Assembly (NCBI GenBank): GCA_020445605.1
Contig: JAGRGH010000063.1
Location: 62,001-126,000, forward strand
Reading direction: 5' to 3'
Length of the DNA stretch: 64,000 nucleotides
DNA from: Chromatiales bacterium
Lineage (GTDB): Bacteria; Pseudomonadota; Gammaproteobacteria; JAGRGH01
In this document: in pieces, positions 46,405-59,174 of the stretch
Numbering within the stretch: position 1 is the stretch's first letter
Layout of the letters: every line of letters begins with the position of its first letter
The notes under the pieces: model-generated
Seen by the model: the letters and a program-made list of their open reading frames with translations, nothing else
What the model was told of the DNA's origin: nothing
The model's database searches: none
Program-made: the position numbers and the translations under genes

Positions 46405-46436
46405 TTTCATTTTCAACGTCTAACATCCGTTGACTA

Positions 46437-46464
46437 GGAAAACTCTGAAATTTTCAGAGTTTCC
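46437..46464. terminator. Hairpin directly after the sulfotransferase-like gene
   Basis: AAACTCTGAAA pairs with TTTCAGAGTTT around a short T loop; flanking GG and CC extend it. It begins at the base after the stop of the minus-strand gene at 46465 and faces the other hairpin 33 bases away, so the two insulate a convergent pair. Confidence 0.6.
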
Positions 46465-47343
46465 CTAACCGCGCCCGGTCGCCAGGCGACGCCACACGCT
46501 TCGCCATCCCGCTGGCCGCCCGGACCAGTCGCCTTCATAGAGCCGCTGCATATACCCGGAGCCAGTCCGCGGATCGAGCACCGGCGTTTCGTCGAGTCGC
46601 CAGTCGTCGGCGTCGTAACCACAGGCGCGGAGAATCGGGTCGATTCGCGGCGAAAAGAATTCCACATCCGCCGGCGTGAACCATTTGCGCCAATTGGCAC
46701 TCGAGCGCGACCGCGCGACCCGCGCTACTGAATCATCCACCCTGACGTCGGCGGACAGGTCCAGGCCCAGATGCGCGGACAGCACCTCAATCCGGCCGGC
46801 CACGAAGTCCTCGTACCGCATCACGAATGCACCTGCCCCGGCCATGGTCAGCAGCTGCCGCAACTCCGCATAGGCCGGAACAATCTCCTCGCCGAGGTCG
46901 CGCCCTGATGCATTGCCGGCAGCCAGAAGCCGGAAAAACGGCAAGCTGACAGGGGCGGCCTCCTTGCGTCGCACGAGACGCACTGCGCGGCGGTAGAACT
47001 TGGCGACCGGCTGGTGCTTGCGATACCAGCTGTACAAATAGCGGCTGATGATCCAGTCGCGCGGATCGCGCACCAGCAACACTGCATGGTCGAAAGCGGT
47101 CAGGGCCGGTTCGAGCGCGGCCGCGTTCATTGCCCCGTGCACGATCACTTTGACCAGCATTGGATCGTGCAATGAAATCTCGCGTCCGCCGAGATGCAAG
47201 GTCACGGATTGTTCACCGACCGTAACGCCGCCAGGTTCAAACACCGTCTCCGGCGCTTCACCGGCCGCGGCCATCGCGTCCCGAACCATGGTGAACACCG
47301 CCGTCGTGGCGGTCTTCGGCAACCCCGCTACCAGCACCTTCAT
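46465..47343 (-). CDS. Sulfotransferase-like P-loop protein
   Basis: A 292-residue protein with the 5'-phosphosulfate loop of PAPS-dependent sulfotransferases, GLPKTATTAVF at 7-17, and a 3'-phosphate motif region VLLVRDPRDWIISRYLYSWY near 90-110. Sulfotransferases move sulfate from PAPS to an alcohol or amine of a lipid, sugar or protein. The acceptor is unknown. Downstream of a HExxH lipoprotein on the same strand (31-base gap), it may modify a surface molecule (inference). The fold assignment is good; true PAPS use is likely but not proven. Confidence 0.78.
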   Translation of the reverse strand: MKVLVAGLPKTATTAVFTMVRDAMAAAGEAPETVFEPGGVTVGEQSVTLHLGGREISLHDPMLVKVIVHGAMNAAALEPALTAFDHAVLLVRDPRDWIISRYLYSWYRKHQPVAKFYRRAVRLVRRKEAAPVSLPFFRLLAAGNASGRDLGEEIVPAYAELRQLLTMAGAGAFVMRYEDFVAGRIEVLSAHLGLDLSADVRVDDSVARVARSRSSANWRKWFTPADVEFFSPRIDPILRACGYDADDWRLDETPVLDPRTGSGYMQRLYEGDWSGRPAGWRSVWRRLATGRG

Positions 47344-52862: not shown

Positions 52863-53930
52863 CTAGCCGCGCTTGTCCAGCCACTCGCCGATCGCCGGCG
52901 GCACCTGCGCCATTGCACCGCCGCTGACGAAGATGCCGATGTGGCCGCCGCGGAACGCCAGTTCGCGGTAGTCCTTCGTGCCGACGTGCTTGCGCAGGGC
53001 CAACGATGCGGCCGGCGGCACGAGGTGGTCCTTCTCGGCGTAGACGTTGAACACGGGCATGTCGACCGCACCCAGATCGACGGTGCGCGCGCCGATCTTC
53101 AGCTCGCCCTTGATCAGCAGATTGCGCTGATACAGGTCACGGATGAACTGACGAAACGCCTCGCCGGCCTGGTCGGGGCTGTCGAAAATCCATTTTTCCA
53201 TGCGCATGAAGTTCTTGAGCTTGTCGGGCTCCTGCATGAGATCGACCGCGTCGATGTACTTCTGGCCGGCCATGCGGAACGGCTGCATGGACAGGAACGT
53301 CGCGTTCATGAGATCGCCCGGAATGTTGCCGAGCGTATCGACGAGCAGGTCGACGTTCAGGCACTGCGACCAGCGGCTCAGCAGGTTGTCCGGCGTCTGA
53401 AAGTCGACGGGCGTGACCATGGTCACGAGGTTGCGTACCTTGCGTGGATGCAGCGCGCTGTAGCACAGGCTCAGCGTGCCGCCCTGGCAGATGCCGAGCA
53501 GGTTCATGTCCTTGCGGCCATGCGCCTTGAGGATGTGATCCACACAGCTGTCGATGTATCCGTTGATGTAGTCGTCGAGGGTGATCCAGCGATCGGCCGC
53601 GTCCGGATAGCCCCAGTCGATGAGATAGACGTCCTGCCCGGCCTCGAGCAGTCCGCGGATCATGGAGCGGTCTTCCTGCAGATCGGTCATGTACGGGCGG
53701 TTCACAAGCGCATACACGACCAGCGTCGGCACCTTCGAACGCTTGACGCCGGCCGGCGTCGCGTAGCGATAAAGCGTCACCTTGTCATCGCGAAACACCG
53801 CCTCGCGCGTGCTCACGCCGGTGCTGATCTCATCGAGCTCGCTCAGGTTTTTCAGGCCCACGGCGAGCTTGCGGTTGAACTCGGCGACTTCCTGAATCAT
53901 GGTCGCGCCGTTTGCATTCGGGTTCGTCAT
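52863..53930 (-). CDS. phaC: Class III polyhydroxyalkanoate synthase subunit PhaC
   Basis: A 355-residue catalytic subunit that polymerises 3-hydroxyacyl-CoA on the granule surface. The lipase-like box is LLGICQGGTLSL with nucleophile Cys148; Asp301 (YAEKDHLVPP) and His330 (RGGHIGIFV) complete the triad, each one residue from the Allochromatium positions. The short length is typical of class III, which needs PhaE. It lies 15 bases after phaE. Its stop codon TAG forms part of the CTAG flank of element copy 3. Confidence 0.97.
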   Translation of the reverse strand: MTNPNANGATMIQEVAEFNRKLAVGLKNLSELDEISTGVSTREAVFRDDKVTLYRYATPAGVKRSKVPTLVVYALVNRPYMTDLQEDRSMIRGLLEAGQDVYLIDWGYPDAADRWITLDDYINGYIDSCVDHILKAHGRKDMNLLGICQGGTLSLCYSALHPRKVRNLVTMVTPVDFQTPDNLLSRWSQCLNVDLLVDTLGNIPGDLMNATFLSMQPFRMAGQKYIDAVDLMQEPDKLKNFMRMEKWIFDSPDQAGEAFRQFIRDLYQRNLLIKGELKIGARTVDLGAVDMPVFNVYAEKDHLVPPAASLALRKHVGTKDYRELAFRGGHIGIFVSGGAMAQVPPAIGEWLDKRG

Positions 53931-53945
53931 TTCAGGCTCACTCCG

Positions 53946-55007
53946 TCAGGATTTGCTTTTCTTCGACTTGCCGCCGGCGGACTTCTTTTTCGCCGGCCTC
54001 TTTTCCGCCTTCGGCTCATCGCGCGACTGCCCTTCGAGCGCCTCGATGCGCTGGATCAGCGCGCGGTTCTCGCGCTTGAGTGACTGCACGCGCTGGGCGA
54101 GCGAGTCGAAATCGGCGCGGGTCGGCAGATGCAGCTGGTGCAGGCTCGCATCCACGAGCTGGTTCATCTCGCGCTTGAACGACATCTGCGCGTCGATCAT
54201 GCGGCCGTTCGCGGCCTGATACGCGTCGGTGGTGACGATCTCGGCATAGACCGCCTCGGCCGCGTCGACCCACAGCCCATACAGACCGCGCGCGGTGGAC
54301 CACGGTCCGTCCGGCTGCGCGACGGCCTCTTCGGTCATGCGTGTCTGTAGCCGCTGCGCGGTCTCGCTGGCGAAGTCCTTGAACAGCGCGGTGAATTCCA
54401 GGAATGCCCGCTGATAATCCATGTAAAGCGTGACCGCGCGCTGCCATTGCCCCTGACGCTCGCGGCTGAGACCCAGACCCGGCGTGTTCAGCCAGCGCGC
54501 GGTATTCGCATACCAGCCGTCGGCGGTCATCTGCGACCAGGGGCCGCTGCCCGGCTGCATGAACAGATCGGTGATCGCCGGCATCGCCGGCATCTGCTTC
54601 TGCCATTCGGCCACCGGCGCCGTCCAGAATGAAAACACCCGATCGAGACCTCCGGTCTGGCCCACGCCCTCGCGGAGCTGTTCGAAGCCCTTCTCGATCG
54701 CCTTGGACCAGGCGGCCTGCGCCTGCTCACCGGAATTCATCGCGGTCTGGAAGCCCTCGTTGCAGACCCGCGCCAGGTTGTCGAACACCTTGCCCTGATC
54801 GACGACACGACCGAACAGATCGCCCGCCACACCGGACTGCGGCATGGCCGCACGGCGCCACTGCTCGAACATGTCCAGCCACGGGTTGGCCGGCGCCGCG
54901 GCCGGTTTGCCAGCATCGCCGAGCGCCGCGCTGCCCATTTCCTGCATCAGGCCCCAGTAGCGCCGCTGCAGGTCCAGCCACTCGTTACCAAAAGCATTCG
55001 CCGCCAT
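53946..55007 (-). CDS. phaE: Class III PHA synthase subunit PhaE
   Basis: A 353-residue non-catalytic partner of PhaC. The body is helical with typical PhaE motifs ([20 protein letters not shown], then [20 protein letters not shown]), and the C-terminus carries a coiled coil (LQRVQSL-like [20 protein letters not shown]) followed by a lysine/serine tail ([14 protein letters not shown]). It is the first gene of phaE-phaC and divergent from phaA; the 133-bp spacer holds a likely PhaR operator. Confidence 0.94.
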
Positions 55008-55036: not shown

Positions 55037-55079
55037 TTGACGCAGCGCAGCATAGCAGCCAGAATTGTGCACTGCAACA
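55037..55079 (+). promoter_or_regulatory. phaAB promoter with PhaR-type operator
   Basis: TTGACG (55037-55042), 17 bases, CAGAAT (55060-55065) form a fair sigma-70 promoter reading toward phaA. TTGTGCACTGCAACA at 55065-55079 overlaps the end of the -10 box and the start site. The same 15 bases occur in the phasin promoter. PhaR proteins bind TGC-rich CTGCN3-4GCAG-like sites, so this is a likely operator; it lies in the spacer shared with phaE. Confidence 0.6.
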
Positions 55080-55140: not shown

Positions 55141-56322
55141 ATGAACGACGTACCCGTGATCGTCGCGGCCGGTCGCACGGCGATCGGAAACTTTGGTGGT
55201 GCGCTGGCGAACGTTCGCGCCCACGAACTCGGCGCCACCGTCATCCGCGCCCTGCTCGAACGCACCGGTGTCGCCCCGGAATCCGTCGACGAGGTCATTC
55301 TCGGCCATGTGCTGACCGCCGGCGAAGGCCAGAACACCGCACGCCAGGCCAGCATGGCGGCTGGCATCCCGCACACCACGCCGGCGCTGACCATCAACAA
55401 GGTGTGCGGCAGCGGGCTGAAGGCCGTACACCTCGCCGCGCAGGCGATCCGTTGTGGTGATGCCGAGATCGTCGTCGCCGGCGGTCAGGAGAACATGAGC
55501 CGCTCCGCGCACGTGGTGCCGAATTCACGCAACGGCCAGCGCATGGGCGACTGGGCGCTGAAAGACACCATGATCGTCGACGGCCTGTGGGATGCCTTCA
55601 ACAGCTGTCACATGGGCATCACGGCCGAGAACATCGCGAAGAAGTTCGACATCTCGCGCGCCGATCAGGACGCCTTCGCGGCCGAATCGCAAAGGCGTGC
55701 GGGTGAGGCACTGGAAAACAGCCGCTTCGCCGACGAGATCGTTCCGGTCTCGATCCCGCAGCGCAAGGGCGACCCGATCGTGTTCGATCGCGACGAGTTC
55801 CCGCGCCCCGGCACCAGCGCCGAATCGCTCGGCAAACTGCGCCCGGCGTTCGACCCGGCCGGCTGTGTGACCGCCGGCAACGCATCGGGTCTCAACGACG
55901 GGGCGGCGGCCGTGATCGTCATGAGCGAGGCGCGTGCCAAGGCGCTTGGCCTGAAGCCACTGGCGTGCATTCGCGGATTCGCGAGCGCCGGCGTGGATCC
56001 GGCGATCATGGGCACCGGCCCGATCCCGGCGTCGAAAAAGTGCCTGGAGCGCGCCGGCTGGGAAGTCGCCGATCTGGATCTGGTCGAGGCCAACGAGGCA
56101 TTCGCCGCGCAGGCGATCTCGGTGAACCGCGATCTCGGCTGGTCGCTGGACCGCGTGAATGTCAACGGCGGTGCCATCGCACTGGGACACCCGATCGGCG
56201 CCTCGGGCGCACGTGTGCTGGTCACCCTGATCCACGAGCTGGCGAAGCGCGACGGGCACAAGGGACTTGCTACGCTGTGCATCGGCGGCGGACAGGGCGT
56301 CGCCATGGCGATCGAGCGCTAG
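55141..56322 (+). CDS. phaA: Acetyl-CoA C-acetyltransferase (beta-ketothiolase)
   Basis: A 393-residue biosynthetic thiolase that condenses two acetyl-CoA to acetoacetyl-CoA. The nucleophile is Cys89 ([13 protein letters not shown]), the catalytic histidine is in [11 protein letters not shown] and the second cysteine is in [18 protein letters not shown] five bases upstream of ATG is an excellent ribosome site. It opens phaA-phaB; phaB follows after 84 bases that contain a hairpin (GGTCGGGAC with GTTCCGACC, 56338-56376). Confidence 0.97.
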
Positions 56323-56406: not shown

Positions 56407-57135
56407 ATGAACATGGCAAGAGTGGCTCTGGTCACGGGCGGGACCCGTGGCATCGGCGAGGCGATCTCGCTGGCACTGCGCGACGCTGGATATACCGTGG
56501 TCGCGAACTACGCCGGCAACGATGACGCCGCGCGCGCCTTCAGCGAACGCACCGGCATCAAGACCCAGAAGTTCGACGTCGGCGACTTCGAGGCCGTTCA
56601 GGCTGCGGTCGCACAGATCGAGCGCGACGTCGGCCCCGTCGACGTGCTAATCAACAACGCCGGCATCACACGCGACGGCACGCTGCAAAAGATGACGTTC
56701 GAACAGTGGAACGCCGTGCTGCAGACGAACCTGACCTCGTGCTTCAACACCTGTCGCGCGGTGATCGACGGCATGCGCGAGCGCGGTTTCGGCCGCGTGG
56801 TGAACATCGGCTCGGTCAACGGCCAGGCCGGCCAGTACGGGCAGGTCAACTACGCGGCGGCCAAATCCGGCATCCACGGCTTCACCAAGGCGCTGGCGCA
56901 GGAAGGCGCGGCCAAGGGCATCACCGTCAACGCGATCGCCCCGGGCTACATCAATACGGACATGGTCCGTGCCGTGCCCGAGAAAGTACTCGAGAAGATC
57001 GTCGCGCGCATCCCGGTCGGCCGGCTCGGCGAGGCCTCCGAAATCGCACGCGGCGTGCTGTTCCTCGTCTCGGACGACGCCGGCTTCATCACCGGCTCGA
57101 CCCTGTCGATCAACGGCGGCCAGCACATGTACTGA
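56407..57135 (+). CDS. phaB: Acetoacetyl-CoA reductase
   Basis: A 242-residue short-chain dehydrogenase that reduces acetoacetyl-CoA to (R)-3-hydroxybutyryl-CoA, usually with NADPH. The cofactor loop is VTGGTRGIGEAI, the SDR motif NNAGITRDGTLQKM is typical of PhaB, and the catalytic Ser-Tyr-Lys lie in IGSVNGQAGQYGQVNYAAAK. A GAGGAGG site precedes the ATG at 56407 by three to six bases; ATG at 56413 is an alternative with better spacing (about 10 bases). Confidence 0.96.
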   Translation: MNMARVALVTGGTRGIGEAISLALRDAGYTVVANYAGNDDAARAFSERTGIKTQKFDVGDFEAVQAAVAQIERDVGPVDVLINNAGITRDGTLQKMTFEQWNAVLQTNLTSCFNTCRAVIDGMRERGFGRVVNIGSVNGQAGQYGQVNYAAAKSGIHGFTKALAQEGAAKGITVNAIAPGYINTDMVRAVPEKVLEKIVARIPVGRLGEASEIARGVLFLVSDDAGFITGSTLSINGGQHMY

Positions 57136-57261
57136 GGCGCCGCCCGGCGCCGCCCGGGCGTATGGACATGCCCGGGTACCCAACCCCCTGCAAGCCCGGA
57201 ATGTTGCGATGCAGCGAAAATGGATTAGAATCCTCAATAGTCACGATTGAGGAGCTTCCCG

Positions 57262-57732
57262 GTGGCCGAGCCACATCTGATCAAGAAGTACCCGAACCGG
57301 CGCCTGTACGACACGATGCAGAGCCGGTACGTGACGCTGCACGAGGTGCGCGACCTGGTGCGCTCGGGCGTGGACATCCGCGTGATTGATTCCGAGACCA
57401 ACGAGGAAATCACCCGTGCCGTGCTCCTGCAGATCATCCTCGAACAGGAATCCGGCGGGGAGCCGCTGTTCACGGCCGACGCGCTGGCCCGCATGATCCG
57501 CGTCTACGGCGATTCGGTTCAGCAGCTGTTCGGCGGGTTCTTCGAGCGCAGCATGGAGCTGTTCAGCGAACAGCAATCGCAGGTCTCCAGGGCGCTGTCC
57601 GGCACGCCCATGGGCGCGATGAGCGATCTCGCGATGCGCAACATGGAACTGTGGCAGGACCTCCAGCGGCAGTGGCTGAACGCCGCCGGCGTCGGCGATT
57701 CCGGCACAAAGAAGGATTCCGGCAAGCCGTAG
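57262..57732 (+). CDS. phaR: PHA synthesis repressor PhaR
   Basis: A regulator of 156 residues from GTG 57262. The N-terminal DNA-binding domain is unmistakable (LIKKYPNRRLYDTMQSRYVT, then LHEVRDLVRSGVDIRVIDSE), followed by the PHB accumulation domain (EITRAVLLQIILEQESGGEP). PhaR binds both PHA and DNA and frees phasin genes when polymer appears. GTG 57262 has GAGGAG eight bases upstream; a TTG five codons earlier is less well placed. It lies 126 bases past phaB. Confidence 0.94.
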   Translation: MAEPHLIKKYPNRRLYDTMQSRYVTLHEVRDLVRSGVDIRVIDSETNEEITRAVLLQIILEQESGGEPLFTADALARMIRVYGDSVQQLFGGFFERSMELFSEQQSQVSRALSGTPMGAMSDLAMRNMELWQDLQRQWLNAAGVGDSGTKKDSGKP

Positions 57733-57930
57733 CGCCTGGAACGCCCGACCCGGCGTCGGGCAGGTTCCGACCCGCCACCCGGCCTGATAGCCAACCTACC
57801 CGGGTGGTTGAGCGACACGGTCAGGTCCCACGCTAGACCGGCCTGCCCCGGGCGCGATCCCGCAGATTCGGCCCCATCCCCTGCCCGCACGATTTTTTGC
57901 TGCGGTGCAAAAATATTTTCCCAAAACCCC

Positions 57931-57959
57931 TTGACAGGGTCCCCGCGTACCGCTATTGT
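57931..57959 (+). promoter_or_regulatory. Consensus sigma-70 promoter of the phasin operon
   Basis: TTGACA (six of six) at 57931-57936, 17-base spacer, TATTGT at 57954-57959. The start site would fall near 57966, inside the palindrome below. The rest of the 296-bp spacer after phaR holds GC-rich hairpins (for example 57746-57763) but no gene. Confidence 0.8.
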
Positions 57960-57986
57960 GCACTGCAACAATGTTGCACTGCACAA
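57956..57986. promoter_or_regulatory. 31-bp palindromic PhaR operator candidate
   Basis: TTGTGCACTGCAACA, one base A, TGTTGCACTGCACAA: 14 of 15 positions pair as an inverted repeat. Each arm contains TGCN3GCA. It covers the end of the -10 box and the expected start site, so binding would block transcription. The left arm is identical to the site before phaA. Assignment to PhaR is inference from the gene context. Confidence 0.7.
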
Positions 57987-58028
57987 AGGCAACAAGGTAA
58001 CCGAATCCACTTAACCGGAGACACTGCC

Positions 58029-58415
58029 ATGATGAATGAAATGTTCGATTCCGTTAACACGGTCAGCAAAAATGCGGCGGTCGCTGCCAAGCAGCTCGCC
58101 GGTGTGAACCTGACGGCCAGCCGCAAGCTGGTGCAGTCCCAGATGGAACTCGCCGACGACGTTATGAAGGCGCAGGTCGAGTTTCTGCAGGCCGCCGCGA
58201 AGGCGAAATCCGCGCAGGACGTCGTCGCCCAGCAGGTGCGCCTGTTCGAGGCCCTGAGCGCCCGTTCGCTGGCCGCCAGCCGTGCGTTCGTCGAGCTTGC
58301 GACCGAGACCTTCGACCAGGTTCGCGCCGTGGTCGAGCAGGAAGTCGAAGCCGCCACCGCGCGTGCCAACCAGGTCGTCGACAAGGCCGTCAGCGCCGTC
58401 CGCAAGGCGGCCTGA
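58029..58415 (+). CDS. phaP: Phasin (PHA granule coat protein)
   Basis: A 128-residue helical phasin. The sequence is amphipathic and alanine-rich with no transmembrane segment (NAAVAAKQLAGVNLTASRKL, QVEFLQAAAKAKSAQDVVAQ, then LAASRAFVELATETFDQVRA), matching the phasin_2 pattern. It coats granules and limits their size. CGGAG about nine bases upstream of ATG is the ribosome site. It has a consensus promoter with a strong PhaR-type palindrome and is followed by a second reductase gene after 3 bases. Confidence 0.9.
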   Translation: MMNEMFDSVNTVSKNAAVAAKQLAGVNLTASRKLVQSQMELADDVMKAQVEFLQAAAKAKSAQDVVAQQVRLFEALSARSLAASRAFVELATETFDQVRAVVEQEVEAATARANQVVDKAVSAVRKAA

Positions 58416-58418
58416 AGC

Positions 58419-59174
58419 ATGGAAGCCCCGGTGACCCGCGTCGCGCTGGTCACGGGCGGCATCGGGGGCATTGGCACCGCGATCTGCCGTCGGATGGCCA
58501 GGGAAGGCCATCGCGTGGTCGCGACCTACCATCCGGCCGAGGCCGACCAGGCGCTGGCCTGGCAGGCCGCGGAACGCGAGGCCGGCGCCGACGTCCACAT
58601 CGCCCCCGTTGATGTCAGCTCGTTCGACTCCTGCCGCGATCTGATCAGCAAGGTCAGCGCCGAACTCGGCCCCGTGGACATTCTCGTCAACGGCGCCGGC
58701 ATCACGCGTGACAAGACGCTGAAGAAAATGGACCCCGAGCAGTGGCGTGCCGTGCTGTCGACCAATCTCGACAGCGTGTTCAACGTCACCAAGCACGTGA
58801 TCGACAGCATGGTCGACCGTGGTTTCGGGCGCGTTGTGAACATCTCGTCGGTCAACGGCCAGAAAGGCCAGTTCGGCCAGACGAATTACTCGTCGGCGAA
58901 GGCCGGCATGCTTGGCTTCACGATGTCGCTGGCGCAGGAAGTCGCGACCAAGGGCGTGACCGTCAACGCGATCTCGCCGGGCTACATCGACACGCCGATG
59001 ACTGCCGCCATGCCCGATGACATCCGCAACGCAATCGTCGCCGGCATTCCGCTGCGCCGCATGGGCACGCCCGACGACATTGCCAACGCCGTCGCGTTCC
59101 TGATTTCCGGCGACTCGGACTACATCACCGGCGTGAACCTGCCGGTCAATGGCGGGATGTTCATGAGCTGCTGA
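58419..59174 (+). CDS. phaB: Second acetoacetyl-CoA reductase-like SDR
   Basis: A 251-residue short-chain dehydrogenase close to the first PhaB. The cofactor loop is VTGGIGGIGTAI, the PhaB-type segment is GAGITRDKTLKKMD, and the catalytic residues lie in ISSVNGQKGQFGQTNYSSAK. It differs from the first copy in the loop after the cofactor site (TYHPAEADQALAWQA), which may alter cofactor or chain-length preference. Three bases separate it from the phasin stop, so it would be induced with granule formation. A strong terminator follows. Confidence 0.88.
   Translation: MEAPVTRVALVTGGIGGIGTAICRRMAREGHRVVATYHPAEADQALAWQAAEREAGADVHIAPVDVSSFDSCRDLISKVSAELGPVDILVNGAGITRDKTLKKMDPEQWRAVLSTNLDSVFNVTKHVIDSMVDRGFGRVVNISSVNGQKGQFGQTNYSSAKAGMLGFTMSLAQEVATKGVTVNAISPGYIDTPMTAAMPDDIRNAIVAGIPLRRMGTPDDIANAVAFLISGDSDYITGVNLPVNGGMFMSC

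Follow-up and report, generated by a model that had tools for sequence, protein, structure and literature searches.

A predicted twin PhaR operator fused to the -10 element of the phasin promoter in a Chromatiales bacterium

The phasin gene phaP lies in a 64 000 bp stretch of genomic DNA from a Chromatiales bacterium (GenBank assembly GCA_020445605.1, contig JAGRGH010000063.1, positions 62 001 to 126 000), referred to here as the window. Its promoter carries an imperfect 31 bp palindrome which is very probably a twin operator for the polyhydroxyalkanoate (PHA) synthesis repressor PhaR, controlling phaP and the adjacent gene phaB2 by a repression that polymer would relieve. The palindrome almost certainly consists of two PhaR boxes, each nearly symmetric and both in direct orientation, which together resemble one long palindrome. 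PhaR had been named as the natural candidate ligand in the original prediction for this site. Sequence comparison supports this choice by a match to the published consensus, by the location of the five best boxes of the window (all at pha promoters or in pha intergenic regions), by the co-occurrence of the arrangement with PhaR in other genomes, and by the phasin or phaB-like genes downstream. The element has a box of the form TGCRNYGCA at a phasin promoter, in a genome which encodes PhaR, and is conserved within the class (22 of the 79 PhaR-encoding genomes).

Results

The palindrome and its promoter

The element (57956-57986) has the sequence TTGTGCACTGCAACA-A-TGTTGCACTGCACAA. Its arms pair at 14 of 15 positions, the sole unpaired position being the eighth base (C opposite C), and the flanks are symmetric as well, both outer (TTG...CAA) and inner (ACA...TGT). 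At least 14 of 15 arm pairs are reached at just two centres of the window, 57971 and 46451, compared with 0.01 expected per window by chance (mean of 300 mononucleotide shuffles). The second one, at 46436-46466, is AT-rich and perhaps a terminator.

The phaP promoter reads TTGACA-17-TATTGT and matches the consensus at 10 of 12 positions; the element starts within its -10 hexamer and is followed, after 42 bases, by the start codon of phaP. The consensus promoter with a 17-base spacer is thereby borne out as originally described. The motif TGCACTGCA, which fits TGCRNYGCA, is present in each arm (57959-57967 and 57975-57983), and the cores of the two boxes, A and B, start 16 bp apart in direct orientation. 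As the final T of TATTGT doubles as the first T of the box A core, promoter and operator are fused. The single mismatch of the palindrome falls on the central N of the box, which the consensus leaves free, so that two boxes, rather than one palindrome, are the simplest description. Thus, the palindrome described earlier is real, but it is imperfect and its unit is a doubled PhaR box of 15-17 bp.

Long inverted repeats can also form hairpins in a leader RNA. However, a transcription start about 7 bases past the -10 element, as predicted here, would leave only one arm transcribed. A chance origin of the palindrome is opposed by the expectation value given above and by its conserved position in other genomes, so that a hairpin or a chance repeat must be regarded as extremely improbable. 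A leader hairpin or terminator was also rejected on folding energy, the leader folding no better than shuffled sequences (z -0.56), and no terminator-like site was found in 57140-58100.

Comparison with PhaR boxes and their distribution in the window

Published PhaR recognition sequences (here and below as given in the accessible parts of the papers cited) are TGCRNYGCASMA for Bradyrhizobium, obtained by DNase I footprinting and by comparing promoters (PMC6201568), the palindromic YTKNTGCRNYGCANMAR for Ralstonia (PMC12849132), and TG[N]TGC[N]3GCAA for PhbF of Herbaspirillum (PMC3206438). Both arms fit TGCRNYGCASMA at the core, and they fit the Ralstonia and Herbaspirillum consensus except for mismatches in the flanks.

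Scoring of the window used a matrix derived from the window's own promoter together with 34 promoters from other loci. The five highest scores are found at 57972, 57956 and 55065 (20.9 each), 57898 (19.2) and 57202 (14.1), those of boxes A and B being partly circular (leave-one-out values are listed in Table 1). Three of these sites belong to the phaP promoter, one to the phaE/phaA intergenic region and one to the predicted phaR promoter (TTGCGA-16-TAGAAT, 57204-57231). Scores of at least 16.9 arise in 7% of 200 shuffled windows; a single match therefore means little, whereas five matches at pha promoters are unlike chance. The boxes at 57956, 57972 and 57898 meet the strict 15-mer consensus TKNTGCRNYGCANMA, and when the 110 bp upstream were shuffled 200 times, the score of the third box (57898) was never reached.

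In the region upstream of phaA (55037-55079), a TTGACG precedes the box core by about 31 bases, and a further, weaker site resembling a box lies at 55038-55052 (score 10.4). Control of phaA may be similar, through one strong box.

Table 1. Predicted regulatory elements and genes of the pha cluster, with positions in the window.
Feature	Position	Strand	Remarks
Twin PhaR operator (31 bp imperfect palindrome)	57956-57986		14/15 arm pairs; two TGCRNYGCA cores; layout matched at phasin promoters of other genomes
PhaR box A	57956-57970 (core 57959-57967)		Leave-one-out score 20.8; overlaps last base of -10
PhaR box B	57972-57986 (core 57975-57983)		Leave-one-out score 20.8; over predicted start site, transcript start
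Third PhaR box	57898-57912 (core 57901-57909)		Upstream of -35; leave-one-out score 19.1
-35 hexamer TTGACA, phaP promoter	57931-57936	+	
-10 hexamer TATTGT, phaP promoter	57954-57959	+	
Single PhaR box, divergent phaE/phaA intergenic region	55065-55079		Exact repeat of the box A 15-mer
PhaR box over -35 of predicted phaR promoter	57202-57216		Score 14.1, fifth best in the window
phaC, class III PHA synthase	52863-53930	-	TIGR01836 532.7 bits
phaE, class III synthase subunit	53946-55007	-	TIGR01834 165.3 bits
phaA, acetyl-CoA acetyltransferase	55141-56322	+	Thiolase_N/C, TIGR01930 500 bits
phaB, acetoacetyl-CoA reductase, first copy	56413-57135	+	TIGR01829 350 bits
phaR, PHA synthesis repressor	57262-57732	+	GTG start chosen; TIGR01848 142.5 bits (cut-off 109.45); PF07879; PF05233
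phaP, phasin, 128 aa	58029-58415	+	PF09361 42.7 bits, TIGR01841 33.1 bits, both above cut-off
phaB2, acetoacetyl-CoA reductase	58419-59174	+	TIGR01829 378.6 bits, above cut-off

Conservation of the arrangement in other genomes

PhaR is encoded by 79 of 274 genomes of the class. The PhaR search yielded 69 loci in named genomes, from which three weak ones in Bacilli (L098-L100) were set aside; these and the locus of the window itself (L101) were left out of the pair counts and promoter comparisons. The core occurs 203 times in 95 PhaR loci; in 48 cases two cores lie no more than 80 bp apart, most often (10 pairs) at a spacing of 16 bp. Six control palindromes gave 0, 0, 0, 0, 1 and 2 pairs, although these controls are themselves rarer (16 to 87 sites). 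The core pairs are located at promoters of the same type as that of phaP. Over 36 distinct promoters the distance from TTGAC to the core is 28 nt in 22 cases, where the hexamer TATNNT shares its last T with the box, and 30 nt in seven, where the hexamer abuts the box. The two cores are 17 bp apart in 13 of these promoters, 16 in 10, 15 in seven, 18 in four, and 19 and 14 in one each; the range is bounded by the search pattern, as some loci had been fetched by pattern match.

This variable spacing bears on the question whether the whole 31 bp might act as one palindromic operator for a single protein assembly, with arms that are not independent. The symmetry of the flanks would suit such a site, and similar flanks recur in relatives. 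It is nevertheless unlikely: apart from the spacing of 14 to 19 bp, lone boxes exist at 55065 and upstream of the gene pntA (see below), lone boxes are bound by themselves in published footprints (PMC6201568), and the one arm mismatch coincides with the free base of the box. We thus retain two boxes as the functional unit.

TTGAC followed by a twin box was found in 23 of the 274 genomes of the class, with no match in the reverse-read control, and 22 of these 23 genomes encode PhaR. In a draw from the whole phylum the pattern was present in 35 of 299 genomes, and the control gave one match; 34 of the 35 genomes lie outside the class, and PhaR scored above the cut-off in every one of these. Absence of the palindrome from the phasin promoters of close relatives had been named as the finding that would speak against the original prediction; at class and phylum level, the twin-box arrangement is present at phasin promoters. 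The first downstream reading frame is a Phasin_2 protein in 26 of 35 cases and a short-chain reductase in six, the latter resembling phaB2 (57-60% identity); one of the three frames matching neither is a wrong-direction reading of the near-symmetric element at locus L140. In five loci, including that of the window, a phaB-like gene lies within about 700 bp after the phasin gene. Among 19 loci examined outside the class, 18 lie in front of a Phasin_2 gene and the remaining one is within an rsmB-like gene.

A repressor other than PhaR as the binding protein is very unlikely. One twin-box genome has no PhaR match, and PhaR is assigned in this organism by comparison of sequences; however, the arms match PhaR sites footprinted in another genus (PMC6201568), and PhaR accompanies the twin box almost throughout, both within and outside the class.

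A strong additional box (score at least 12) within 110 bp upstream of TTGAC, like the third box of the window, was present in six of 34 promoters (at -21, -22, -33 or -36), whereas shuffled sequences lead one to expect 0.05. For this test, 34 of the 36 promoters were kept; locus L152 and the opposite-strand reading of L140 were dropped.

Several observations weigh against the assignment as a conserved PhaR operator. The twin-box genome without a PhaR match (G228) is 88% complete. The arrangement is not required for PhaR, which is also encoded by 35 of 46 pair-less genomes picked outside the class, and the strict pair is absent from 57 of the 79 PhaR genomes within it. Two matches look like chance: one lies within an rsmB-like gene (L223), and the other (L152) has an odd spacing and no downstream open reading frame that could be found. 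The upstream box is a minority feature, and two of its six occurrences come from one genus. The genomes are related, so that p values, such as that of Fisher's test for the co-occurrence with PhaR (2e-12; 22 of 79 versus 1 of 195 genomes), overstate independence. Finally, the conservation refers to class and phylum, as the bacterium is the only representative of its genus and family in the sets searched.

Genes of the pha cluster

The gene phaR ends at 57732, which agrees with the distance of 224 bases to the palindrome given in the original prediction. It is the only PhaR match in the genome, and its product has the domain PF07879 (PHB_acc_N, DNA-binding; residues 6-65) followed by PF05233 (PHB_acc; residues 70-108), both above cut-off. 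As only three bases separate the phaP stop from the phaB2 start, one operon is probable, and the phaP promoter would probably drive both genes together. The two acetoacetyl-CoA reductase genes (phaB and phaB2) flank phaR and phaP, one per presumed operon.

PhaR boxes elsewhere in the genome

Ten strict 15-mer boxes occur in the 3.36 Mb genome, four of them within the pha cluster (binomial p 2.6e-9), compared with three in the reverse-read control. The scan for the 15-mer of the left arm, which had been suggested as a check, revealed exact extra copies at 55065-55079 and upstream of a transhydrogenase gene. The latter box precedes a pntA-like gene by 92 to 78 bp (L011 2792-2806; G000:C49:294791-294805, minus strand); the product of this gene scores above the cut-off for PRK09424 and below that for TIGR00561.

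In a first scan, a box scoring at least 10 was present within 250 bp upstream of pntA in five of 28 loci from PhaR genomes; in this test the threshold was picked after the scores were known, and the best 30 loci per search were scanned. After filtering of start codons the count was five of 19 PhaR genomes versus none of 21 PhaR-less ones, and with a looser filter five of 26 versus none of 29. Without the genome under study, the looser filter gave four of 25 versus none of 29 (p 0.04), all four boxes being weak. The background rate was one in 319 windows.

Three of the remaining strict boxes (C37, C40 and C49:130630) have no clear regulatory setting among the neighbouring reading frames. Another (L012 1991-2005; G000:C6:63490-63504, minus strand) comes right after a TATAAT and overlaps the start codon of an acyl-carrier-protein-like gene, which adjoins a gene for an exosortase A-associated hydrolase; it may hint at a link between polymer and exopolysaccharide. 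A further one (L023 1501-1515; G000:C49:36744-36758) precedes a gene for a Crp/Fnr-type regulator by a few tens of bases.

A wider regulon was sought by a scan allowing one mismatch; with at least 123 sites versus at least 69 in the reverse-read control, this proved too noisy and was rejected. The loose pair pattern without a promoter occurs at five places in the genome versus one in the control, and the phaP operator is one of the five.

Discussion

How PhaR might act at the phaP promoter

Without polymer, PhaR bound to boxes A and B would cover the -10 end and the predicted start site and thus exclude RNA polymerase sterically, and the third box upstream of -35 may add to its occupancy. One PhaR tetramer bridging both boxes is possible, as PhaR of Herbaspirillum is treated as a tetramer (PMC3206438). 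When polymer forms, the granule surface would draw PhaR away from the promoter, and this would switch on phaP and phaB2; once phasin fills the granule surface, PhaR would be freed again. The phaR promoter and the phaA/phaE intergenic region, with one box each, would be further targets of PhaR. Such a titration model has been published for Ralstonia eutropha (PMC12849132) and confirmed for Sinorhizobium meliloti (PMC12542648). We infer tight repression and its release by polymer in the Chromatiales bacterium by analogy with this published PhaR biology.

PhaR could conversely be an activator at this promoter, as R. eutropha PhaR activates phaP3 (PMC12849132) and Bradyrhizobium diazoefficiens PhaR has been proposed to activate some genes (PMC6201568). 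We consider this highly improbable. The activation of phaP3 has been linked to sites that precede a sigma-54-like promoter (PMC12849132), whereas boxes A and B occupy a blocking position, covering the end of the -10 element and the start site in a promoter of the sigma-70 type that is close to consensus. Repression remains our preferred reading.

A possible link to reductant supply

The gene phaB2 in the phaP unit, the box in the phaA/phaE region and the exact box copy upstream of pntA, which encodes an NAD(P) transhydrogenase, suggest a tentative and rather doubtful extension: polymer-titrated PhaR in this lineage might control the use and supply of reductant in addition to the granule coat, with positive feedback on polymer synthesis. 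Granule formation would turn on NADPH supply together with an NADPH-using reductase, and the twin box fused to -10 would be the tightest switch. The position of phaB2 in the presumed operon and the PhaR box that has been predicted in front of zwf in S. meliloti (PMC12542648) likewise suggest that NADPH supply may be coupled to polymer formation through PhaR, which we regard as a lead only. The links to pntA and phaB2 offer a testable case for feedback between storage polymer and NADPH supply.

Relation to known PhaR systems

A PhaR box at a phasin promoter is already known, and the twin-box layout fused to -10 is well conserved. No description of this layout was found in the literature searched, which leaves most subscription papers aside and was accessible in part, so that it may be in print. 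The PhaR switch, which has been studied in a few alpha- and betaproteobacteria, is extended here to a conserved promoter layout in numerous genomes of another class and beyond. The layout also provides a search rule for polymer-responsive genes: TTGACA, a 17-base spacer, a TATNNT whose last T is also the first T of TGCRNYGCA, and a second box 14-19 bp on.

The phaP1 promoter of R. eutropha (Cupriavidus necator) is similar in being a sigma-70 phasin promoter with PhaR sites directly upstream of -35 and around the start, in its palindromic box with the core TGCRNYGCA, and in its repression by PhaR, which is relieved by polymer in that organism (PMC12849132; PMC3570403). It differs in having one palindromic box around the start and one predicted inside the gene (PMC12849132; PMC3570403), whereas the promoter described here contains two complete boxes at a spacing of 16 bp, of which box A is fused to -10, and its transcription unit carries phaB2. 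The phaP1 and phaP4 promoters of B. diazoefficiens have footprinted PhaR boxes of the form TGCRNYGCASMA, two of them at phaP1, but there the pair flanks -35 instead of lying on -10 and the start site (PMC6201568). PhaR (AniA) of S. meliloti recognizes a palindrome with the same core pattern, present in two copies at both phaP1 and phaP2, and again the pair flanks -35; its main polyhydroxybutyrate targets are phasins and depolymerases, and the activity of the phbA promoter is reported to be unaffected by phaR (PMC12542648). PhbF of Herbaspirillum seropedicae, finally, footprints its own promoter and represses phaP1 and phbF fusions, whereas its description, in the accessible parts, gives no twin boxes (PMC3206438).
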